A stretch of DNA of 50,293 nucleotides, taken from positions 1 through 50,293 of IMG/VR virus record IMGVR_UViG_3300047409_000283, one strand, 5' to 3'. Position 1 is the first letter of the stretch. Every line of letters begins with the position of its first letter. Below the pieces are notes generated by a model, which ran no database searches, had not been told where the DNA came from, and saw only the letters and a program-made list of their open reading frames with translations. The translations under genes and the position numbers were made by a program. Source of the stretch: a virus. Shown in pieces: positions 2,981 to 40,970 of the stretch.

Positions 2981-5900
2981 GAAAAAATTACGTAACAACG
3001 CTACTGTTGACACTGACGCTTTGCATGATGTGTACAGCACAGACACCAACAATGCATGTCGTTGGTAAGTCAAAGGGTGTAGGACGAGCGAGCTTTAATG
3101 CCAGTCCGAATATCACCGTAACCTCACTTGTTGTAACACCAGTGAACCAACAACAGTTCGTTGGTTTTTCTGTGGGTTACACAGCGACGGTGAATCTATC
3201 AACGGGTGACACTGTTAACGTCACTCGATTTGCTACTTGGGTACCAAGCAATACCAACGTTGCGATTCTTGACACTCAAGTAGGAACGCAGAACATTAAG
3301 TGCATTTCGGCGGGGACTGTTATAGTTAAGGCTATCTATGGTGGATTAACTGATCAAGCATCACTGATGTGTAACTCTACGGTGCCACCGCCGCCGACAA
3401 TTCAGAGTGTCACACTCAGCCCGACGAATCCCAGTATTGCTGTGGGTACGTCACAGTTGTTCAGTGCCATTGGGCATTTCTCGGATGGGTCGAGTCAGGA
3501 CATTACATCGACGGCAACCTGGGCTACGTCTGATGCGACGATAGCTAAGAAGGGAGCTCTCGCAACGCAGCAAGATTTCGATTGCTTGAAGGCGGGAACA
3601 CCTGTTATTTCCGCGACGCAGAGCTCGTTTACTGGAACCACCAATTTGACGTGTGCTGCGGTACTCATCAGTGTTCACGTGACACCATTGACGTCGTCCA
3701 TTCTGGTTGCCAGTACACAGACCTATTTGGCGACGTGCGTTTTCAATGATGGGTCATCCAGTGATTGCACAACTCAAGCAACGTGGACTAGCTCTAATAC
3801 ATCAGTCGCGGTGATGACATTACCCCCCGTGTCACCAGAGCCAGCAACAGGGCTGACCGCTGGAACGGTAACAATCACTGCGACTATCGGAACTCTTTCT
3901 AGTAACACCACGCTAACGGTCAACAATCCCGGTCCGCCACCGCCGACGTTGGTTAGTGTCACGGTCAACCCAGTTAACCAAACCGTAAACGTGGGGAGCA
4001 CGCTGGATTACACCGCGACGTGCAACTATTCAGACGGCTCCACACAGGATTGCACCGCGGGTGCGACGTGGGCGTCAACCAGTCCGTCTGTAGCAACGAT
4101 TACATCGACGGGTGATCCGCGTACTGCGACTTGTTTGATAGCAGGTACGACCAGTTTGCACGCTACGTTTCAGGCTGTGTTGGGTACGACTAATCTGACG
4201 TGTCAAACACCCACACCAACCCTGTCTAGTATCGCTGTAACACCGGCTAATCAGACTGTAACGGTTGGATCGAAGATTAGTTACACGGCGACGTGTACTT
4301 ACTCGGATGGGTCAACGCAGAATTGCACACTGGCGTCACAGGGCACGACAACGGTGTGGACAAGCAACAACACCGGCGTTGCAACGATGGCCTCGCCGGC
4401 GACATCACCGGAGCCGGGTTCGTGTATTGCTGTAGGTGCTGTCACAGTGAAAGCACAAGTCAGTGCTACTTTTGGTACAACCACCCTGACATGTCAGAAT
4501 CCAACACAGCCCAATTTCGGAGTAGATGGTTACTGTCCGCCAACTAATATCCCGACGTGGGGCGTTAGTTATCACGGCGCGCTGTTTCCAACTACGTGTT
4601 ACAACACAGATCCATCTAGTACACCATCGACGGGCGCAGTACATGGGCCGGATTCGACGTTGGCTACAGTTCAAGCCGATCTCAATGCAGCAGCGTGCGG
4701 CGATGTAGTGGAGATCACCGCCGGTGTGACGTTGAGCGGAACTCTGATATGGCCAGCGAAGGTCTGCGACGCGTTGCATTATCTTACACTACGTGTACAT
4801 AACTTCGCGTCGGCGTTCCCGCCTTACGGCACGATACGTGGTGTCAGCCCATGTTATTGGGGTGTGGCGTCGTTACCAGGATATCCAGCGTTCAACTGCG
4901 TGCTGACGACAAATCGTGGGGTGACGATCCAATCAACGGGGACGAATTTCTCAATGCAAATGACCGGCCCCGCGGCGTTTGGTCGTATTGAAGGTATTAA
5001 ATTCACGCGCACGGCGGGTACTGGATTGGTGTCACGGATGATCAAATCCGAGATCCCCAACATGGATCACTTCGTTTTCGATAGTGATTGGTGCGCCAAC
5101 ACCGCGACGGATGAGATGCAGCGGTGTATGTTCTTTGATGGTTACAGCTACATCGCATGGGTGAATTTTCTTGTTACCGACATGCACTGTATCTCAATCT
5201 CAGGCCACTGCACCGCGAATCAAGGTTTCTCTGGTGGGCTGAACGGTTTCTCATCGACACCGGATCACACGTGGAAGATAGTCAATGGCTTCTTCACATC
5301 CGCCGATAATACGACAGTAGGTTGGGGCGGCGGTGGGGCTAACACCGTGCCATCAGACATTGAGATACGTCTAAACTGGGGTAAGAAATTGATGATCTGG
5401 AACCCCGGTTGCACCGTAGCTCTGTGTGGTGTCGCCTACAACGGAGGTGTCGGTGGTAATCCGTTTATCGCGAAGCAGTCGATGGAAACGAAGAACTCTG
5501 ACAAGATGTTCATTGAGGCCAATGTACTTGATGGCTCGTGGGCTGGGTTCTCGCAGGTCGGATCACATATACTGCTGACGCCCAAGAACCAAGCTATCAA
5601 CGGGAATAACATCTGTCCGTTGTGTTCGGTGACTAATAACATTATACGGTTCAACTTCCTGACGACGTCTAACAACTGTTTTCAAGTGGCTAACGTTGGA
5701 TCGGATGCAGGTGGCTACGCCGTTGCCGGAAACAGCTACGCGATTGATAACAATGTTTGTGAGAACACCAACTATCCAGGATGCTATAAGTGCTCAACGA
5801 ATTCGGGCGGAGCACTTGACGGTGGTGATCTGTCAGTTACGAGTCCGTTGTCTCCGGTGGGTTTCATCCTGCATGACGTCTTTGTGAACCACAACGCCTA

Positions 5901-6387
5901 CATTCCAAACGGTTCGGCGTTCAAGATGGGTGGATTGCTTGGTGTATCGGGTGGATTGGCATCCAACTCACGACAAATGTTTAACTTCACTTGGACCAAT
6001 AACATTGGGCCGAAAGAGGGTCTGGCTATAAATAATCCATCAGATGGCTGTTCACAGAAACCAACCACGAATTGTTATTGCGGTAACTCGACGCCGAAGG
6101 CGATTCTCGATGCCTGTTTTGGAACCACTGGTTATACATTCGGTGGTAACGCTTTTGTTGCTAATGGGACTACGTCGTGGCCTGGCTCGAATTGTACTGC
6201 TGAATTATCGCAGTCTAGTATTTACGTGAACTACAACAACGGTACTAACGGCCCGCAGAATGTACTGAACTATCGAGTAAAGACAACCAGTGCATGTCAC
6301 AACGCTGGTAATGATGGACTTGATCCAGGGCCAGATGTGACCACGTTGAACAATCGAATTTTCAGTGGTAAGGTGGCTCAATTTTAA
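2977..6387 (+). CDS. Large secreted-type protein: five BIG2-like Ig repeats plus beta-helix domain
   Basis: The start at ATG 2977 forms an ATGA overlap with the previous stop. The 1136-residue protein opens with a Sec signal peptide (MRKNYVTTLLLTLTLCMMCTAQ). Residues of about 35-510 hold five BIG2-like Ig units, each with the pattern SVxVTPxNQTVxVGS, then YTATCxYSDGSTQDCT, then WTSSNTSVATM. The C-terminal 600 residues have the Asn/Gly/Val-rich rung pattern of a right-handed parallel beta-helix (NNIIRFNF, NNVCENTNY, NHNAYIPNG), as in phage tailspikes and polysaccharide lyases. The most likely role is a receptor-binding or depolymerising spike. The combination with an export signal resembles bacterial surface proteins and suggests capture from a host gene. 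No catalytic residues could be assigned. Confidence 0.85.
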   Translation: MRKNYVTTLLLTLTLCMMCTAQTPTMHVVGKSKGVGRASFNASPNITVTSLVVTPVNQQQFVGFSVGYTATVNLSTGDTVNVTRFATWVPSNTNVAILDTQVGTQNIKCISAGTVIVKAIYGGLTDQASLMCNSTVPPPPTIQSVTLSPTNPSIAVGTSQLFSAIGHFSDGSSQDITSTATWATSDATIAKKGALATQQDFDCLKAGTPVISATQSSFTGTTNLTCAAVLISVHVTPLTSSILVASTQTYLATCVFNDGSSSDCTTQATWTSSNTSVAVMTLPPVSPEPATGLTAGTVTITATIGTLSSNTTLTVNNPGPPPPTLVSVTVNPVNQTVNVGSTLDYTATCNYSDGSTQDCTAGATWASTSPSVATITSTGDPRTATCLIAGTTSLHATFQAVLGTTNLTCQTPTPTLSSIAVTPANQTVTVGSKISYTATCTYSDGSTQNCTLASQGTTTVWTSNNTGVATMASPATSPEPGSCIAVGAVTVKAQVSATFGTTTLTCQNPTQPNFGVDGYCPPTNIPTWGVSYHGALFPTTCYNTDPSSTPSTGAVHGPDSTLATVQADLNAAACGDVVEITAGVTLSGTLIWPAKVCDALHYLTLRVHNFASAFPPYGTIRGVSPCYWGVASLPGYPAFNCVLTTNRGVTIQSTGTNFSMQMTGPAAFGRIEGIKFTRTAGTGLVSRMIKSEIPNMDHFVFDSDWCANTATDEMQRCMFFDGYSYIAWVNFLVTDMHCISISGHCTANQGFSGGLNGFSSTPDHTWKIVNGFFTSADNTTVGWGGGGANTVPSDIEIRLNWGKKLMIWNPGCTVALCGVAYNGGVGGNPFIAKQSMETKNSDKMFIEANVLDGSWAGFSQVGSHILLTPKNQAINGNNICPLCSVTNNIIRFNFLTTSNNCFQVANVGSDAGGYAVAGNSYAIDNNVCENTNYPGCYKCSTNSGGALDGGDLSVTSPLSPVGFILHDVFVNHNAYIPNGSAFKMGGLLGVSGGLASNSRQMFNFTWTNNIGPKEGLAINNPSDGCSQKPTTNCYCGNSTPKAILDACFGTTGYTFGGNAFVANGTTSWPGSNCTAELSQSSIYVNYNNGTNGPQNVLNYRVKTTSACHNAGNDGLDPGPDVTTLNNRIFSGKVAQF

Positions 6388-27020: not shown

Positions 27021-27423
27021 ATGCGTAACTGCCGTCCAACGGCAGTGGGGTGTCTTGATCGATTTCTGCGTCTTCCGCAGCGATCTCCGCAACGATTTCT
27101 TCCTGTGCCAGCGCGATCCACGCGGGACGGTTTTTGAACTGCACGGCGATCCCGGACATCATGCCGTACAGAACACGTTTGCCCATCCATTCCTCAGTAC
27201 CGATACCAGTAGCGACCACCCGGCCGGTGGTCGGACGTACTAAGGACTTCTGTGGTGCCAGGATGATTTTCGAGGGTGCCTTCGGTGCGTCTTGTGCGAC
27301 GATCACCCGCCCCGGCGTTGGCTTCAAGAAGCACGCATCCGGAATAGCGTAGGCTTTCTGGTTGTCGCGCTCAACGCGCTCTAGGGTTTCAGCGATACCA
27401 CCGAATTCAGCTTTGTTGGTCAT
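27019..27423 (-). CDS. GroES-like co-chaperonin
   Basis: A 134-residue protein. After an N-terminal extension of about 35 residues the GroES (Cpn10) fold pattern appears in order: TPGRVIVAQ (beta-strand), APSKIILAPQ in place of the mobile loop, TTGRVVATGIG, MGKRVLYGMMSGIAVQF and the C-terminal strand IALAQEEIVAEIA. In GroES these are the PLxDRVLV, GxVxAVGxG, GDxVxFxxYxG and DILAV segments. It would cap a chaperonin, presumably the host GroEL, to fold phage proteins. Standard GroES is about 95 residues, so this one is extended at both ends. It is the last gene of the minus arm and overlaps mazG by 4 nt. Confidence 0.82.
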   Translation of the reverse strand: MTNKAEFGGIAETLERVERDNQKAYAIPDACFLKPTPGRVIVAQDAPKAPSKIILAPQKSLVRPTTGRVVATGIGTEEWMGKRVLYGMMSGIAVQFKNRPAWIALAQEEIVAEIAAEDAEIDQDTPLPLDGSYA

Positions 27424-27743
27424 GCTAACTTGCCTCCATGTCTGTGTCCTCTAGTGAGGTTATATTTGAGTTTCCGTTCTAATTCGTATTCGAGTTCAAT
27501 GTCGTTTAAGACAGCGTAATGTCCGATTCGAATCAGAATGTCAGCAAACTCAGATCCGATACCTTGTGGTTTGCCGTGATCGTCAGTCCACGACACCGGC
27601 TCACCATTACGGTATGCTTCGAGGGCTTCGCTCGCCTCACTGTGAATGAGGGCTATTTGTTCCGGGATTGGAACTTCTTTTTCAGTCCATCCAAGTTCTT
27701 TGGCTTGCATGTAGCAGCGTTGTACTAAGTCTTCGATTGTCAT
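27420..27743 (-). CDS. MazG-like NTP pyrophosphohydrolase
   Basis: The ATG at 27743 is preferred because AAAGGA lies about 10 nt upstream; an in-frame ATG at 27761 is just 18 nt earlier. The 107-residue product has the all-alpha NTP-PPase pattern: EQIALIHSEASEALEAYR (metal-binding ExxE helix) and GIGSEFADILIRIGHYA (ExxD helix). MazG-type enzymes hydrolyse (d)NTPs to monophosphates and pyrophosphate and, in phages, may adjust nucleotide pools or alarmones. It lies beside a deoxyribosyltransferase-like gene, supporting a nucleotide-pool role. Confidence 0.85.
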   Translation of the reverse strand: MTIEDLVQRCYMQAKELGWTEKEVPIPEQIALIHSEASEALEAYRNGEPVSWTDDHGKPQGIGSEFADILIRIGHYAVLNDIELEYELERKLKYNLTRGHRHGGKLA

Positions 27744-27744
27744 G

Positions 27745-28101
27745 TTAACGGGTCCTTTCATTTAATAGTTCATCAATAGAATCAACACGACGACACAGAC
27801 GTGTGAACACGTTCGTGTACGGACCTATGATAACTACAGGAATATGATTCGCCAATGCGATGCCAAGCTCTGTGTACATTCCCCCTCTCGACCCCTGATG
27901 TATTGTAAACAGTATTAACATATCAGAGTCGTGGATGTCCTTCAAGTCCGTTGTTGCACATTCGATAGGACAAGCATCGTCATGTTGTCCTGTGAGCCAA
28001 ATCGCAGGTACTCTGATGTTATGACCTTTCGCCTCTAGAAGCTTTGCTACTTTATTTAGTTCTAATCTTGCGGAATACGAGCCAGCTAAATAGATTGTCA
28101 T
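27745..28101 (-). CDS. Nucleoside 2-deoxyribosyltransferase-like protein
   Basis: A 118-residue protein with the pattern of the family: N-terminal IYLAGSYSAR, then the DLKDIHDSDMLILFT strand, and GGMYTELGIALANHIPVVIIG, where the Glu of YTELG corresponds to the nucleophile region. Related enzymes exchange or hydrolyse bases of deoxynucleosides or deoxynucleotides. It ends 2 nt before mazG starts and overlaps the helicase gene stop, so the three genes are coexpressed. A DUF4406-type relative with other specificity is possible. Confidence 0.78.
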   Translation of the reverse strand: MTIYLAGSYSARLELNKVAKLLEAKGHNIRVPAIWLTGQHDDACPIECATTDLKDIHDSDMLILFTIHQGSRGGMYTELGIALANHIPVVIIGPYTNVFTRLCRRVDSIDELLNERTR

Positions 28102-29333
28102 TGGATTGTACTCACTGTGGATTGTTGTTGAACTTTAACGATACGGTAAATGGTAACACCCGACCTGTTTTCAGTTCGGATGACACGCCCGGCTTCCAGA
28201 GTCGCGAGGATAATATCCAGATTTTGGCTGCTTCCCACGTCGCGCCACATCGCGCCCATTAAATCAGCACGAGTGACGAACGTCAGCTTGGACTTCATCT
28301 CGATGTAACGTAAGACTTTGTCCATCACCGTCGCAAGCTCGCTATCGCCTACGGCACGGAACACCCGTTTGAGGTTCTCGGTGACACCGTTAACCATCGC
28401 GATGGCACTAGCCATGTCAACGAAGTTGATTATCATATTGTCGAAGCGTGCCACTGTCAACACCATTGCCAGCTTCAGTGCGTGGTACGGACGTGACGTT
28501 TCATAGGACGCCGTTGCTTCATCCGCGAACTCGTCTCCTTTGGTGTTGACGTAATAGTCCTCAAACATCTTCTTGGCGTGTGGGTCGAAGCTGAAAGCAC
28601 CTTTAAGCTGACCGATGTGTTTCAGATCGTCGATAAGTGCATCACGTATGGGGTCATTACCGTTCCGTTGCATCGGCCACGGTATGCTTTTGGTCTTTTC
28701 TGAATCGTACACGAAGTTACAGCGTCGCACGAAACCACCGCCTACGGCTTGCGACGGAAACAGGATAGCAACCTGCGACGGTGTACAGCCGCCCAGCAGC
28801 GTTGGACAGGGCTTGGAGATCTTCACGAGTCCCTTACCGCGTGTACCGTACTCGTAGGTGCCGTCTTTGGATTCCCATAGCTCTTTTAGTGGCGACATAG
28901 CGTCGCTGGACAGGATGAGATCTTCCAATTCGGGCGCGCTTATGAAGCATGTGCTGTCCAGTGCAAACGTTACAGTGCCGCTCGGCCCTCCTTGAAACGA
29001 CAGTTGCGCCGCCGCATTACCGCGGTCGGAGATCTTTTCGAGGATGTACTGAATGGTCAACTTGTCACTCACGATGTTGGCGACACCGCCCTCACGTAGT
29101 AATGCCACGGCTGGATTGATAGACCTTCCCTTTCCCAAACCAGTGTGTCCCACAAGGACGGTGTACAGATTGGGAAAGAGGTTGAAATCACCTCGATTCA
29201 CCCAAACATTCCGTTTCAGAGCACCAGCGATGACGGTTGCTGCTGACCAAGTGTGGTAACTGGTGGGACTTTCAGAGGTCTGTTCAATCCACGATAAATA
29301 CTCTGCAATCCAGCCACGTCTGAGAGCGCGCAT
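28098..29333 (-). CDS. DUF3987-like RecA-fold ATPase (replicative helicase candidate)
   Basis: A 411-residue protein starting with the family-typical region YLSWIEQTSESPTSYHTWS and AATVIAGALKRNVWV, then a P-loop VGHTGLGKGRS (residues of about 61-71), FISAPELEDLIL as a Walker B candidate, and a C-terminal winged-helix-like region (VTRADLMGAMWRDVG). DUF3987-type proteins occur in phage and plasmid replication loci as helicase or primase-helicase components. Its first 118 nt overlap the C-terminal codons of the polymerase gene in another frame. No separate primase is recognisable nearby. Confidence 0.8.
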   Translation of the reverse strand: MRALRRGWIAEYLSWIEQTSESPTSYHTWSAATVIAGALKRNVWVNRGDFNLFPNLYTVLVGHTGLGKGRSINPAVALLREGGVANIVSDKLTIQYILEKISDRGNAAAQLSFQGGPSGTVTFALDSTCFISAPELEDLILSSDAMSPLKELWESKDGTYEYGTRGKGLVKISKPCPTLLGGCTPSQVAILFPSQAVGGGFVRRCNFVYDSEKTKSIPWPMQRNGNDPIRDALIDDLKHIGQLKGAFSFDPHAKKMFEDYYVNTKGDEFADEATASYETSRPYHALKLAMVLTVARFDNMIINFVDMASAIAMVNGVTENLKRVFRAVGDSELATVMDKVLRYIEMKSKLTFVTRADLMGAMWRDVGSSQNLDIILATLEAGRVIRTENRSGVTIYRIVKVQQQSTVSTIQ

Positions 29334-30700
29334 TTCACCGTTTTCATTTCGTTGAGGTTGTAGCCGAATTCTACTTCAATAGGTATTTGAAATTCGAGTC
29401 CTTTGGGGAGTCTGATTCTTCGATTGAAAGCTTCTTGTAACCAAGACGTAGCATCGCGAACCCCATCGAATGTATCAGGGACTTCAACTGTGACTGCGTC
29501 GTGGTCGTCGAGGACAACGTGTCCCGGATGGAATCGCTCAAGCCAAAGGATAGCGAACCCTGTATTGGTTCCAACGGTGCCTTGTGGGATTTGGGCATAG
29601 CCCTCCTTCATTATCTTCTTGTTATCACCGTAGTCCCGAAGACCAAAGAACTGACGTGTAAACCCAAATGGTGTCGTGAGACAGCGATTAACCCGGAGTT
29701 GTTCTTGGACATAGTGATGATACACATGTCGAATACCGGGATCTTTCTGATGGAAACGCTCCAAGAGCCAGGCACAGAAAGATTCTTTAACAACATGACC
29801 TTCCTTGGCCATCTCACCCGCGAAGCGGAATGCTTCCATGTCGTAATTACCAGCATGACGTACCTTCTTTCCCATGAAACGTTCTGGGGTGTCTTTACCG
29901 CACTGATCCAGAGGCTTGCCGAAAATGAACGACGCCAGCCGCGCGTGGCGGTCTACGCCTGCAAGCAGCTCATTGAAGCCAGCGCGGTCGCCCGACTGAT
30001 CCGCGATGATACCTTGTACTAACCAATCTTCAGCACTGACTTGATCACATTTAACGAATATCCTTCCCGGACGAGAAACAAGGCACTCTCGATATCGACT
30101 AGCAAGGTCTGTGTGTTTTGGCTGGTTTTGTAAATTCGAGCCAAGTCCGAGGTAATTTTCTCTGCAACTTCTTCGTCCAGTGACTGTGCCTGTGACGAAG
30201 TAAGCTCCATACAACGTATTGCCCTCAAGTTCGACGTCAATGTAAGTTCCAAGGAGCTTATTAAGCTCGCGAACTCTTTGTTGTTCCTTGAGGAAGGGGT
30301 GTCCGGTTTCTGCGTAGAGTTCATTTAATGACTCCTCATCACTGCTTTCAGACCACGTGTTATCAGCACGCTTTTTCTTCGGCGGTGTCATGCCGAGGCT
30401 ACGCAGTACGTCTAGTATCTGCGGGGTGGACGAGAGATTAAGAACCTTAGGGTCAGGCTTCGCTTTAGGAGCACTACGAGCAATGACAGTCTTACCGCCC
30501 ACGTAATTCGATATACGTTGACAAGAGGATCGAAGTTCTTGTTGGACAAAATCACGTAGCGCGTCCAGCTTGGTAGTGTTAACACAAACGCCGCGCTGAT
30601 TGATTTCGTAGAAAGCACGTGCCAAAGGCATCTGATACAATTCATAATACTCCCTCGGAGTGAGTTTACCGGGATCACGGAAGTTAAGCTGCGACGCCAC
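29216..30700 (-). CDS. DNA polymerase I, polymerase domain only (family A)
   Basis: Start GTG 30700 is 10 nt after AGAGGAG; TTG 30709 is the alternative. About 494 residues carry the family A polymerase domain: TGTVTGRRS, LQNQP, motif A VKCDQVSAEDW (catalytic Asp about 219), motif B R-x3-K-x7-Y (R274, K278, Y286) and motif C DDHDAVTVEV, in which HDA replaces the usual HDE. The 3'-5' exonuclease is missing and lies instead on the preceding protein, fused to UDG. The core ends near GYNLNEMKTVK; the last 35 residues overlap the helicase gene. The protein would copy the phage genome. Confidence 0.88.
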   Translation of the reverse strand: MASQLNFRDPGKLTPREYYELYQMPLARAFYEINQRGVCVNTTKLDALRDFVQQELRSSCQRISNYVGGKTVIARSAPKAKPDPKVLNLSSTPQILDVLRSLGMTPPKKKRADNTWSESSDEESLNELYAETGHPFLKEQQRVRELNKLLGTYIDVELEGNTLYGAYFVTGTVTGRRSCRENYLGLGSNLQNQPKHTDLASRYRECLVSRPGRIFVKCDQVSAEDWLVQGIIADQSGDRAGFNELLAGVDRHARLASFIFGKPLDQCGKDTPERFMGKKVRHAGNYDMEAFRFAGEMAKEGHVVKESFCAWLLERFHQKDPGIRHVYHHYVQEQLRVNRCLTTPFGFTRQFFGLRDYGDNKKIMKEGYAQIPQGTVGTNTGFAILWLERFHPGHVVLDDHDAVTVEVPDTFDGVRDATSWLQEAFNRRIRLPKGLEFQIPIEVEFGYNLNEMKTVKCALSDVAGLQSIYRGLNRPLKVPPVTTLGQQQPSSLVL

Positions 30701-31868
30701 GGGCGGCAAACTCCTCTTCTTGACGTTGAAAGACTTCTAGTGTAACACAGACGTCCTTGCAGTTGTACCGTTTCATCTTCTGGCGGTCTTTAACCGACCA
30801 GTCTTTGCCTTCGTCCTTGTAATAGGGCTCTCGGGTATACTGAAAGGTCTGAAAATCAAGTTTATGCGATAATTCTGGCCAAAGCGTATGATGTCGTACA
30901 AGTGTGTCATGAACCAACTGAATATCAGGGCTAAATCCGATATACTGCAACCACGGTAAATCGTGCGTGTAATAATTTTGACCAACTTGCGTTCTTCGTT
31001 GTAAAACCTCATTGATAAGTGACCACACTTGGGTTGTTTTATTCTTTTCGTATTCCGCGAGCCCAATGGACATACCGAAAAGAGGATCGATGCTAAAACC
31101 GACGACGTAGGGTACTCGATTACGTTGCTTAACCTTGTATTTGCCACGGTACACTCCGATGTTTTCGATGTCTATGGAAACCACTGTCTGCGGCGGGGAT
31201 GCCAATATGGATCGGAGATAGTCGATCGCGTCGTCGGCGGGAGGATCGCTGATGAGCTGACGCTGGGGGAGGGGCTGCAACTGATTGGAATGCGTCTTCC
31301 AGTAGTTGTATTCTTCAGCAACACGAGCGAGGCATAGGATGTCGATCTGTCTTTCCTCCCACGCTCGGAAGATGAACGCCGGGTGGTAAGCAGGCAGAAT
31401 GTAATGCTCCCACGGGAGCGTATCACACCGTAGAATTGAACCGCGGTATTTGGAGATCTCAGCATGGCCTGTTCGCTTGGAGATAGTAAATGGACACAGT
31501 AGTCCAAGTGGAGTCGCTCCAAGTGGGACGATGAAGGTGGGACGATAAACATTTAGTTCCTCCCAGAACTGCTCTACAAAGAGTCGAAGGTCAATTCCGA
31601 GCTCTCCAAGACGGTCAATTTTGTTATCGGGAGGCCGGGTCTTATAAGGATTCGTCCACCAGCATCCAGACGGATCGATACCTGACTCAAGTAACATTCG
31701 ATCGAGCTCCCGTCCGCTTGCTCCACAAAAAGGGATACCCTGTTGGTCTTCGTCGGCCCCTGGTGCTTCTCCAACAAAGCAGATTGGAGCTCCGTTAGTT
31801 CCACGAGTGCCCACATAATGCAGTCCTTTCGCCGTGCAAGCGGCTTTTAACTCTTCAGTTTTTGTCAT
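30684..31868 (-). CDS. Uracil-DNA glycosylase fused to PolA-type 3'-5' exonuclease
   Basis: A 394-residue two-domain protein. Residues 1-200 match family 4/5 UDG: FVGEAPGADEDQQG (31-44), PFCGASGRELDRML (46-59), TNPYKTRPP (72-80) and YHPAFIF (161-167). The usual N-terminal CxxC pair of family 4 is absent, although Cys11, 125 and 148 remain, so the Fe-S cluster is uncertain. Residues of about 225-390 have the DnaQ-like exonuclease motifs: SIDIE (D233, E235), NYYTHD (N298 to D303), QLVHDT and YNCKD (Y368, D372). The exonuclease is what the next protein, the polymerase, lacks. The genes overlap by 17-26 nt in different frames. Confidence 0.87.
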   Translation of the reverse strand: MTKTEELKAACTAKGLHYVGTRGTNGAPICFVGEAPGADEDQQGIPFCGASGRELDRMLLESGIDPSGCWWTNPYKTRPPDNKIDRLGELGIDLRLFVEQFWEELNVYRPTFIVPLGATPLGLLCPFTISKRTGHAEISKYRGSILRCDTLPWEHYILPAYHPAFIFRAWEERQIDILCLARVAEEYNYWKTHSNQLQPLPQRQLISDPPADDAIDYLRSILASPPQTVVSIDIENIGVYRGKYKVKQRNRVPYVVGFSIDPLFGMSIGLAEYEKNKTTQVWSLINEVLQRRTQVGQNYYTHDLPWLQYIGFSPDIQLVHDTLVRHHTLWPELSHKLDFQTFQYTREPYYKDEGKDWSVKDRQKMKRYNCKDVCVTLEVFQRQEEEFAARGVAA

Positions 31869-31998
31869 GTTCTTTTATTAGAGTCAAGTCGATCATGTCA
31901 CCGCACTCAGTACATTCCAGTGCATTCTCTGTTAACCAATCTGGAATGGGACGAGTTGGTTTTACCAGTTCACCTTCGTTACAAATTGGACATTTCAC
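31855..31998 (-). CDS. Small zinc-ribbon protein (47 aa)
   Basis: A short gene filling the gap between the methyltransferase fusion and the UDG fusion. The GTG start overlaps the upstream TGA as GTGA, and the stop overlaps the start of the next gene by 14 nt, so it is coupled at both ends. The product begins MKCPICNEGELVKPT and contains LECTECGDMIDL, giving a CxxC-CxxC zinc ribbon. It may bind DNA or act as a subunit of a neighbouring replication protein. Confidence 0.72.
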   Translation of the reverse strand: MKCPICNEGELVKPTRPIPDWLTENALECTECGDMIDLTLIKEHDKN

Positions 31999-33395
31999 AA
32001 GACACCTAACCGCGACCGGATGAGAACGCAATTCGCTGGCTCCAACTCAAACAGAATGGCCTTGCGTTTGGCGCGCAATGCCGCCTCGCCTGTCGTACCG
32101 GCGCCGGCGAACATGTCTAGCACGACGCAGTCAGGTGTGGTCATGTCGAGGATGAACTTCTCCATTATTCCGACTGGTTTCTGCGCGGCGTGGAGTCGTT
32201 CGGGGCCTCGGACTGAGGGTAGCGCCAGTGAATTAGATAAGTTTGGACGTAGAAATCGTGGCACCCCTTTTGACGCAATAAGTGCTGGATCGTAGCTTTT
32301 GGAGTATCGAGCGAATCCGTCTGGCGGCGCAGTACGATCACGTAGCCAAATAAATGGATAAGGGTCAACAGTAAACCCAGCAGTGACAAGAGCAGAATAC
32401 AATACATCGTGATATCCCATGCCATAAAAAAACACTCCAAAGCGATTGTCTTGTAACACACGGTAAGACGCTACCGCGACGTCGGCACAGAGTTCAACAA
32501 TGTTAAGGTCACTATCGCTGAACTGACCGAGACCAGCACCATGAGCAGCGGATGATGAACCCAGGCCGATGTTATAAGGCAAATCAGTGAGAACCAAGTC
32601 AACACTGGAATCAGGAACCGTAGGAATGTTGTTTTGGAAGGCACCTTCATACAACGTCCACCTTTCTGAAACCGGCGGGGTGGGGCCAGCATCACCAGAG
32701 CCACTGGTCGCGCTGCCCACCCCTACTGTCGTCGAGGCACGGTTGGCCGCCGTCTCACCACTGTTATGAGCAGTGGTCACGACAGATTTCTTTGCTTGAA
32801 TTTGCATCGCCGCGACGGTAACGGCTACACCCAGCTTACGTTGGGCGTCCGCGCGGGTTGGCATTGACGCTAACGCTGGGTGCTTCTCGACGAAACCAGC
32901 GAGCTCAATATCACGACTGGTCGTGCTGGGATTCTCTCCTAGCATGGATGCCATCGCACGTAGACTGAATCCACTGTGCGGGCCAGACTTACCAGCACCG
33001 AATCCAGGGCCGTCGCCTAGAAGTTTTTGCATGATCTCAAAGAGACGTTTTTTACCGAGGATCTCCTCGACCCATGTTAGTTCCTTGCGCTTGAGGTTCT
33101 CCTCGATCTCCATCGCCATGAGCCGGACTGGATCGAGTTCATCTTTGAACACGTAGTCCTGACCGTGAACAAGCTGATCTCGTTTCAGCAAAAGCAACGC
33201 AGCATGACGCCGGCCGCCTGCTATGAGCCTGTAGTTACGCGCGATGACAATTGGCTGAATCAACCCGTGCTTCTCAATGCTGTTAGCAAGAGAACGAACA
33301 TCACCTAGATCATGTCTCATGCGATCTGCGACGATCACACTGGTTATTTTAATTGTGTTGCCTAGAGCAACATTAACTTGGACTTCTTCGAGCAC
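31995..33395 (-). CDS. ParB-like domain fused to DNA methyltransferase
   Basis: GTG 33395 is preferred since GGGAGGT lies just upstream; ATG 33407 and a longer frame from 33503 overlap the preceding gene. About 466 residues. The N-terminal ParB/Srx domain shows SLANSIEKHGLIQPIVIA and the YRLIAGGRRHAA box, then a helical HTH-like region and a Ser/Gly/Thr linker. The C-terminal amino-methyltransferase domain has TDLPYN (DPPY-type motif, about residue 270) and DMFAGAGTTGEAAL (SAM site), an N4-cytosine/N6-adenine type order. ParB-methylase fusions are known in phages. It may methylate DNA at sites the ParB part binds; dyad copy 4 lies within its own 5' codons. Confidence 0.86.
   Translation of the reverse strand: MLEEVQVNVALGNTIKITSVIVADRMRHDLGDVRSLANSIEKHGLIQPIVIARNYRLIAGGRRHAALLLLKRDQLVHGQDYVFKDELDPVRLMAMEIEENLKRKELTWVEEILGKKRLFEIMQKLLGDGPGFGAGKSGPHSGFSLRAMASMLGENPSTTSRDIELAGFVEKHPALASMPTRADAQRKLGVAVTVAAMQIQAKKSVVTTAHNSGETAANRASTTVGVGSATSGSGDAGPTPPVSERWTLYEGAFQNNIPTVPDSSVDLVLTDLPYNIGLGSSSAAHGAGLGQFSDSDLNIVELCADVAVASYRVLQDNRFGVFFYGMGYHDVLYSALVTAGFTVDPYPFIWLRDRTAPPDGFARYSKSYDPALIASKGVPRFLRPNLSNSLALPSVRGPERLHAAQKPVGIMEKFILDMTTPDCVVLDMFAGAGTTGEAALRAKRKAILFELEPANCVLIRSRLGVL
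33355..33373. promoter_or_regulatory. Dispersed dyad copy 4 (GTGTTG-N7-CAACAT)
   Basis: A copy with spacer CCTAGAG and one half-site change (CAACAT). The right flank TAACT matches copy 1. It lies inside the early codons of the ParB-methyltransferase gene, which suggests autoregulation if that protein or another phage regulator binds it. Confidence 0.68.
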
Positions 33396-33435
33396 GTGAC
33401 CTCCCATTGCGTGAATAATGACGGTGATTGGGTCG

Positions 33436-33663
33436 TTATTTAACGGGTTGCTCTTGTTGTCGCTCTGTAACAACAGGTTGCAAGTCCGGCAGAGTATCTC
33501 CACGTGGCACCTTGCCTGTACCTAAACAGGTTGGACATGTGTCAGTTGACTCGATCCACTGCTTGCCGTGGACAGAACACTCACCTTTTTCGTTCAACTG
33601 CTCGTGACAGTAGGTATTACACTTACCGCTGTCACCGATGGGAATTTGAACAGTGCATTTCAT
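33436..33663 (-). CDS. Small Cys-rich protein with DnaJ-type zinc half-site
   Basis: A 75-residue protein with AGAGGGG upstream. It has two Cys in CNTYCHEQ, one in ECSVHGKQ and CPTCLGTGKVPRG, the last matching the CxxCxGxG repeat of DnaJ zinc fingers. Four or more zinc ligands are available. The C-terminus is charged and disordered. It precedes the ParB-methyltransferase gene, whose upstream frame overlaps it. Function is unknown. Confidence 0.75.
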   Translation of the reverse strand: MKCTVQIPIGDSGKCNTYCHEQLNEKGECSVHGKQWIESTDTCPTCLGTGKVPRGDTLPDLQPVVTERQQEQPVK

Positions 33664-39549: not shown

Positions 39550-39822
39550 TCAGAATTGACCGCCGTTCGATGGGTCTTTCGAGGCTGCTTCGATTGGATC
39601 GACGCCAGTAAGAACAGTTGGGTCAAAACGCAGTTCTTCTGGGTTGACATCGGTTACGATGACCCAAACTTTGCTGCCAAGCGGCAATTGGCCACCGACG
39701 TAAATGGTCTCGTCGCTGTACTTGGCTGTCTTGAACGTGACGCTGGACTTGACGTCATAACCACTGACGCTCACGTCCGATTTCATGTTGATGTTTACGA
39801 CGCCTTCGTAGATGTGTCTCAT
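39550..39822 (-). CDS. Small beta-rich protein after FtsK gene
   Basis: The ATG at 39822 has AAAGGAC upstream; the longer frame overlaps the FtsK gene. The 90-residue product is beta-rich (YEGVVNINMKSDVSVSGYDV, KVWVIVTDVNPEEL) and may be a small barrel. Its start overlaps the FtsK stop (ATGA). It is coexpressed with the FtsK motor but has no recognised family. Confidence 0.7.
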   Translation of the reverse strand: MRHIYEGVVNINMKSDVSVSGYDVKSSVTFKTAKYSDETIYVGGQLPLGSKVWVIVTDVNPEELRFDPTVLTGVDPIEAASKDPSNGGQF

Positions 39823-40970
39823 TGTATTGTAGTGTCCTTTCGAGTGGATTGCGACTGAGTCGCTGTGAAAGTCTGCTGTTGTTGCTGTGCAAATGCTATG
39901 CACTGCGTGATGTCGTCGTTCGACGCGTAACACGAGTGCAAGCGTCGGGATGCCGGGTGATTCGGACTGACGTAGTAACAGTCGCCCTTCGATAGCAAGT
40001 GCTCTGCACCTCCGTGGCCTAAGACAGTACGTGAATCCACTTCCGACGGCAACCGGAAGCTCAACCGCGCGGTGAAGTTAGACTTGATCGTACCAGCGAT
40101 GACGTCCACCGAAGGTCGCTGGGTGGCTGCTATGACGTGTATTCCCGCTGCACGTGAGCGCTGTGCGATTAGCTGTAGCCTGCCTTCGGCTAGTTTTGCT
40201 ATGCCTTTGTCAGCGGCTTTACCAACGAAGTCGGCTAGTTCATCTATCACCAGCACGATGTATGGCAGACGCTTGTGTGAGAACAGTTCGTTGTACTGTC
40301 CGACGTTCTGTTGCTTTGCAGCGGCAAGCAGTTTCAAACGACGTTCCGTTTCGGCGTTCAGCGCGTCCATGTACTCGACAGTTTGCAGCGTCATAGTAGT
40401 GCGCGGTCGCCACAGATGTGGGTCGGCGTCAAACACACCGAATTCAACCTGCTTGGTGTCACTGAGTACCAATTGGACTTCGTCTGGTTTCTTCCAGTAC
40501 GCTAACGCGGCGATCAGACTGCGTAGTAAGACAGTCTTACCACCGCCTGTACTCCCAGCGATGAGTAGGTGTGGTAACTCTGTCAAGTCTTCCCTGAATG
40601 TCTTGCCCTGTGAGTCCACGCCCAGTGCCAGTGGCACTTTCATCCGATCCACCCCGGGTTCCGTCCCGATATGATCTCGCCACAACGGAATGGTACGCAC
40701 TGCGTTGGGTATCGAAATGCCAACGACAGCTTCACCGGGGAGTCGTCTGATTGTGACGTCTTCCACTGCAAGTGCCATCGCGATGTCAGCTGCGAGCGCG
40801 GTGATCTGCGCTACGCGTAAGGAGTTCTTCGGTGCGAATCGATACGTTGTGATCAACGGCCCAACGGTGATGGGTTCCACGAACGTCACTTCGTGGCCTA
40901 GTGACGCCAGTTTCAGCGTCACGGCGGCGATGGTCTTGAACTGTTCAGGTGACACGCTAGTGGGAGTCAT
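39819..40970 (-). CDS. FtsK/SpoIIIE-type DNA translocase without membrane domain
   Basis: A 383-residue protein made of the FtsK alpha and beta motor domains. Residues 10-100 resemble FtsK alpha (GPLITTYRFAPKNSLRVAQI, LAADIAMALAVEDVTIR). The motor has HLLIAGSTGGGKTVLLR (P-loop, 134-150), IVLVIDELADF (Walker B, 238-248), RAAGIHVIAATQRPSVDVI and RLSFRLPSEVDSRTVLG. N-terminal membrane helices and the C-terminal gamma (KOPS-reading) domain are absent. Hexameric FtsK motors pump double-stranded DNA; in a phage this could serve genome segregation, concatemer handling or transfer. A ParB-like protein is also encoded, which makes a partition role worth considering. Confidence 0.86.
   Translation of the reverse strand: MTPTSVSPEQFKTIAAVTLKLASLGHEVTFVEPITVGPLITTYRFAPKNSLRVAQITALAADIAMALAVEDVTIRRLPGEAVVGISIPNAVRTIPLWRDHIGTEPGVDRMKVPLALGVDSQGKTFREDLTELPHLLIAGSTGGGKTVLLRSLIAALAYWKKPDEVQLVLSDTKQVEFGVFDADPHLWRPRTTMTLQTVEYMDALNAETERRLKLLAAAKQQNVGQYNELFSHKRLPYIVLVIDELADFVGKAADKGIAKLAEGRLQLIAQRSRAAGIHVIAATQRPSVDVIAGTIKSNFTARLSFRLPSEVDSRTVLGHGGAEHLLSKGDCYYVSPNHPASRRLHSCYASNDDITQCIAFAQQQQQTFTATQSQSTRKDTTIQ

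Follow-up and report, generated by a model that had tools for sequence, protein, structure and literature searches.

A phage family-A replicase with a uracil-DNA glycosylase domain, apparently cut into two overlapping genes at a domain boundary

Enzymes in which a uracil-DNA glycosylase (UDG), a 3'-5' exonuclease and a family-A DNA polymerase are fused are already known in phages; PaBG gp205 has been described in these terms (PMC7412058). The PHROG_17 polymerases, which include SPO1 gp31, PaBG gp205 and the polymerases of the 40–50 kb phages MW202489, Mel-JY34 and vir526, have the same domains, in the same order and at the same profile positions, as the pair of genes studied here, which lies on the minus strand of IMG/VR virus record IMGVR_UViG_3300047409_000283. 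This whole stretch of 50.3 kb is called the window below. The PHROG_17 polymerases are single polypeptides, although the gene of SPO1 gp31, with the same UDG-exonuclease-polymerase order, contains a group I intron. In contrast, the window encodes two separately started chains, with UDG and exonuclease on chain 1 and the polymerase on chain 2. The original prediction for this DNA highlighted the joining of UDG and proofreading, but this joining is not new, since it has been described for the fused enzymes, and the split only separates the polymerase from it. What looks new is the recurrent splitting of the gene, which appears to be unreported in the literature that was searched. We found no account of a split UDG-exonuclease arrangement in open-licence papers, and the YerA41 polymerase paper does not mention a glycosylase.

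Replicases in pieces have been described in other phages. It is known that homing endonucleases can break the replicase genes of phages into halves that still work, and the split T4-like proteins 43A and 43B copurify and have polymerase activity (PMC2988022). The 43A/43B polymerase of the Aeromonas phages 25 and 44RR, like other ‘genes in pieces’, resembles the replicase of the window in being divided between two chains; in these cases the chains function together, and the break carries a homing endonuclease or an insert (PMC2988022). However, 43A/43B is a family-B polymerase with another break point and no UDG. According to the searched text of PMC10580990, the OM43 phages MEP401 and MEP402 encode a family-A polymerase on two open reading frames (ORFs), as in the window, but the break lies inside the polymerase domain, a small ORF stands between the parts, and that text mentions no UDG domain. 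The isolated podophage Kuura of Caulobacter (OQ067476) has a polymerase of the same UDG-PolA family, with a DUF3987-like neighbour, and it is also split. However, its cut lies inside the exonuclease, Exo III is on the polymerase chain and two small genes stand between. Finally, the family-A polymerase of phiLo (PDB 9qhs, 1142 amino acids), which was solved with a modified template, has an N-terminal UDG-like domain (residues 16–152) that matches chain 1 by sequence and is also among its fold matches. It differs from the two chains of the window in being a single chain, and has 17% identity in the aligned part.

The two genes of the window and their parts are:

30684..31868, minus strand: UDG-exonuclease gene (chain 1), 394 amino acids, from ATG at 31868 to TAA at 30686–30684; Pfam, PHROG and NCBIfam evidence and an AlphaFold model with a predicted local distance difference test (pLDDT) of 95
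31299..31868, minus strand: UDG domain, approximately residues 1–190, with E34, F47, N73 and H162 and without the iron-sulphur cysteine set
30687..31265, minus strand: 3'-5' exonuclease domain, residues 202–394, with D233, E235, D303, Y368 and D372
29216..30700, minus strand: polymerase gene (chain 2), 494 amino acids from GTG at 30700, in an ORF open from TTG at 30709; family-A thumb, palm and fingers, without an exonuclease domain
30684..30700, minus strand: overlap of the two genes, 17 nucleotides (nt), with the polymerase in the +1 frame
30711..30716, minus strand: Shine-Dalgarno-like GAGGAG for the polymerase gene

Profiles and structural models together identify chain 1 as a predicted UDG followed by a 3'-5' exonuclease and chain 2 as the polymerase, in line with the motifs from which the original prediction had read these functions. 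Chance ORFs of such length have a probability of ~2e-8 (UDG-exonuclease) and ~2e-10 (polymerase) at the composition of the window. Both chains were modelled with AlphaFold using alignments of viral-contig relatives, which gave a pLDDT of 95.2 and a predicted template modelling score (pTM) of 0.91 for chain 1, and a pLDDT of 91.9 and a pTM of 0.90 for chain 2. In chain 1, the Pfam UDG family matches residues 26–173 (E 2.6e-22), and residues 1–196 of the model superimpose on the family-4 UDG TthUDGa (1ui0) with a Z of 23.1. In this alignment E34, F47, N73 and H162 of the window correspond to E41, F54, N80 and H155, which are uracil-pocket residues of TthUDGa.

The exonuclease domain is also recognizable by fold. 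DNA_pol_A_exo1 of Pfam matches residues 277–382 of chain 1 with 22.6 bits, just below its cut-off of 23.6, and PHROG_403, ‘DNA polymerase exonuclease subunit’, also matches (4.8e-07). Residues 203–394 of the model superimpose on residues 328–524 of the Klenow fragment exonuclease with a Z of 19.9. The DEDDy set is complete (Exo I D233/E235, Exo II D303, Exo III Y368/D372), so that the second domain has a true DEDDy fold and the possibility that it is not DnaQ-like falls away. Chain 1 ends where the Klenow exonuclease domain ends (~residue 524). No split-intein fragment was found at its end: 22 of the 394 residues lie beyond D372, and the model folds the C-terminal stretch into a helix.

Chain 2 matches DNA_pol_A over the ORF 30709..29216 on the minus strand (E 5.2e-23), and its top fold matches are Klentaq, Bst and Klenow-type polymerases. 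The catalytic residues are present in motif A (D219), motif B (R274, K278 and Y286) and motif C (H400-D401), numbered from the GTG start; the residue after the HD of motif C is Ala, not Glu. On the PHROG_17 profile, chain 1 covers positions 480–829 and chain 2 positions 833–1241, so nothing is missing between the chains, and jointly they correspond to one polymerase.

The polymerase gene more likely starts at GTG 30700 than at TTG 30709, because GAGGAG (30716–30711) lies 10 nt upstream of the GTG and the protein would then start with MASQLNFRDPG, which can be aligned with MTHELNFRDPG in L004, one of the relatives, which are labelled here with L numbers. With this start the genes overlap by 17 nt and not by 26, and the original prediction of a PolA plus UDG distributed over two overlapping genes stands with this smaller overlap. 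A 17-nt overlap in different frames is typical of translational coupling. A group I intron of the SPO1 type between the two halves was considered and rejected, since the overlap leaves no room for it.

Evidence that the split is real comes from L004 (IMG/VR 3300050821_002263). This contig has the same two genes, with 68% (UDG-exonuclease) and 76% (polymerase) identity, split at the same place, but its halves are separated by a gap of ~480 nt that holds an HNH_3 homing endonuclease (PF13392, 1e-10); the window has no homing-endonuclease gene at its break. L004 is an independent, diverged contig with the same break and an inserted gene, which leads us to reject an assembly error as the origin of the split in the window. 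The ratio of nonsynonymous to synonymous divergence between the two (dN/dS) is ~0.15 for the UDG-exonuclease and ~0.13 for the polymerase, with dS near saturation, so both halves are maintained under purifying selection. Their polymerase chains have a common new N-terminus, LNFRDPG.L..R.YYELY, which is missing in fused kin. The window and L004 form one clade (support 100), and their nearest kin, L029–L035, are fused. A search seeded with the polymerase pair found only L004 in viral contigs, plus two distant relatives in bacterial or archaeal genome contigs. L036 has its split at this place too, with TAA-T-ATG at the junction, and the linker reads through in the closest fused kin, as EFEEQPELKRFYSEYEMPLARAF in L034. 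Constraining the tree to a single origin of the split shared with L036 made it 15.6 log units worse, with a p of 0.104 in the approximately unbiased test (p-AU).

To place the split in the family, relatives were gathered from phage genomes and viral contigs and their domains were mapped onto ORFs, giving 81 non-redundant complete cases, window included. One polypeptide is the commoner form (59 of 81), and in this comparison the gene of the window is cut at the boundary between exonuclease and polymerase domains. The gene is interrupted in the other 22, at three recurring positions. Eight are interrupted at the exonuclease/polymerase boundary (window, L004, L009, L036, L064, L065, L084 and L093), six within the exonuclease, with Exo II before the break and Exo III after it (Kuura/L005, L066, L076, L087, L104 and L106), and eight in the polymerase part, ahead of motif A (L013, L014, which is the SPO1 intron, L021, L055, L062, L071, L077 and L092). 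The maximum-likelihood tree requires 14 changes between fused and split forms, and five when the site of the window is taken alone, and suggests that the fused form is probably ancestral. Starts of their own are present in the split polymerase genes, in several cases together with a Shine-Dalgarno-like sequence or a stop-start overlap. In the six exonuclease-internal splits, Exo I and Exo II are on one chain and Exo III is on the other. The active site would then be shared between chains, which must therefore associate if proofreading is kept.

We consider it probable that the two chains of the window are an ordinary UDG-type family-A phage replicase in two pieces that reassemble, and that the gene was split by mobile-element invasion or by short indels. 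Both chains would be made by translational coupling and would reassemble through the native exonuclease-polymerase interface into one proofreading polymerase. The split itself may be a neutral or tolerated ‘gene in pieces’ left by a homing-endonuclease gene such as the one between the halves of L004, or small indels may have disrupted the linker, which is how the split of L036 looks. The UDG domain would bind template or nascent DNA, where it would probably still recognise uracil, and either cut it out or act as a DNA-holding or sensor module.

Repeated breakage by mobile elements or small indels, which would be tolerated because the halves come together again, is the most economical account in view of the gap contents, the homing endonucleases that cut replicase genes, the introns of PHROG_17 and an intein in L089. 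Group I introns have frequently been found in PHROG_17 polymerases (PMC11878797), and the polymerase of L089 (5827–9354), a UDG-exonuclease-polymerase, contains an in-frame intein (PF14890) just before motif A. Taken together, these introns and the intein indicate that the gene attracts mobile elements.

Several points weigh against this reading. Among close kin, a homing endonuclease stands in the gap only in L004. The other gaps hold unrelated genes, such as those for an NrdR-like zinc ribbon (L009), a dCMP deaminase (L104) or a DHH-family protein (L092), or nothing, so that the cause of the split in the window is only inferred. Some of the counted interruptions may be introns, of which SPO1 is a known case, or single-contig sequencing frameshifts. 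In an Rfam search, no group I intron of the other gaps reached the gathering threshold, but this negative carries no weight, as the known intron of SPO1 was overlooked too and gave only a weak partial match (E 0.021). The conservation of UDG motif A is in part a circular result, since an EAPGADE seed was used to collect most relatives, and a count of E34 would be biased. The NrdR-type zinc ribbon frame of L009 (2992–3134; PF22811, 2.8e-13), between UDG-exonuclease and polymerase, lacks a normal start codon, and L013 (Vibrio phage ABTNL-3) has a 184-residue ORF (5674–6228) inside its broken polymerase gene.

The alternative that survives best concerns only the UDG domain and is compatible with a two-chain replicase. 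The domain could be a degenerate relic with a structural or DNA-holding role and no uracil biology, which we regard as possible but doubtful. Chain 1 resembles the family-4 UDGs (TthUDGa 1ui0, TM0511) and UdgX in fold (Z 20–23) and in its pocket residues. However, those are free enzymes with an iron-sulphur cysteine set, whereas the domain in the window is not free and lacks the family-4 set of four cysteines (4Fe-4S): it has no CxxC, and KTRPP replaces KCRPP. It also lacks the KRRIH loop with the crosslinking histidine in the UdgX alignment, and the NCBIfam UdgX model scores chain 1 far under its cut-off. No more than 7 of the 81 sequences have all three of the scored iron-sulphur marker cysteines, and a well-supported branch sets the side of the tree with these 7 apart; the set was not found in the other 74. 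The loss of these cysteines coincides with one large clade, in which the pocket residues are nevertheless conserved. Degenerate glycosylase motifs occur in SPO1, L002, L011, L013 and L108, and such relatives include a Desulfofustis phage. A DNA-binding or structural role is possible because of the missing cysteines and these degenerate motifs. A role outside repair is plausible as well, because the vaccinia UDG D4 works as a processivity factor (PMC10253040). Against a relic, the fold is very close to that of active family-4 enzymes, and F47, N73 and H162, intact in the window, are kept in 77, 75 and 78 of the 81 sequences, respectively. Hence, the uracil pocket is probably kept in the window.

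Alternatively, the replicase could be a deliberate two-subunit enzyme, in which the split was selected so that the UDG-proofreading subunit can vary in amount, be exchanged or be used apart, like PolIII epsilon and alpha, with uracil scanning as one such use. The break lies between domains, this boundary has been cut several times, the new N-terminus is common to the polymerases of the window and L004 and absent from fused kin, and the UDG pocket residues are conserved. Yet, other splits break the exonuclease or the polymerase domain itself, which would make little sense for independent subunits; the fused form dominates; and both chains come from a single coupled operon and are therefore probably produced together. 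We therefore think this explanation unlikely. Its boldest version is a shade less likely again: a recurrently evolved two-subunit family-A replicase whose detachable UDG-proofreading subunit, without an iron-sulphur cluster, would read uracil in template or nascent DNA and edit it together with the polymerase, the separation being selected and not a mobile-element scar. A replisome that scans for uracil while it proofreads, as originally proposed, is possible.

Full-length fused enzyme might also be made by programmed +1 frameshifting within the 17-nt overlap, since in the window, L036 and L064 the polymerase is in the +1 frame and this frame stays open ahead of the start codon. Such frameshifting is very improbable: no slippery site could be recognised by eye in the overlap, the halves of L004 lie ~480 nt apart with an HNH gene between them, and the polymerase genes have their own ribosome-binding sites and starts. 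That a sequencing or assembly error split a single gene, which the original prediction had named as a danger, is scarcely credible. A single linker indel could mimic the split in an individual contig such as L036, but L004 also has a homologous polymerase start, and the isolated phage Kuura is split too, at another site.

The genes next to the pair on the same strand are:

28098..29333, minus strand: DUF3987/PHROG_14296 primase-helicase-like gene, next in the replication module
31995..33503, minus strand: ParB-like/DNA methyltransferase gene, upstream of the UDG-exonuclease gene

Counterparts of the DUF3987/PHROG_14296 gene occur in the loci of 72 of the 81 polymerase relatives, and a ParB/methyltransferase-like gene in 46; several of the 40–50 kb PHROG_17 phages also have the DUF3987 primase as a neighbour. 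Sak4-like and exonuclease genes also lie near the pair in the replication module of the window. A nucleotide search with this replication region found no matches in 50,697 phage genomes. The last 118 nt of the polymerase gene (29216–29333) also encode, in a different frame, the beginning of the DUF3987 protein, and the polymerase tail encoded there has low model confidence. This long overlap looks real, because L004 has a similar one (5434–5569) and the primase N-terminus, GWIE.YL.WI..TSESP, is conserved. Beyond the primase, a nucleoside 2-deoxyribosyltransferase-like protein (27745–28101) adjoins a pyrophosphatase-like gene (27420–27761; PHROG_3301), and a related protein sits in the polymerase gap of L065. 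Further away, an FtsK/SpoIIIE-like ATPase gene with an FtsK alpha domain lies at 39819–40970 (PHROG_1358, 3.1e-73).

The fused phage UDG-polymerases have received little functional study in the papers that we searched. Natural splits at three places show where such a replicase can be cut and still serve the phage, and where the exonuclease itself is cut, two chains are predicted to build the active site jointly. The split form provides a UDG-exonuclease half and a polymerase half for separate tests, so that the role of a UDG on a replicative polymerase becomes directly testable.

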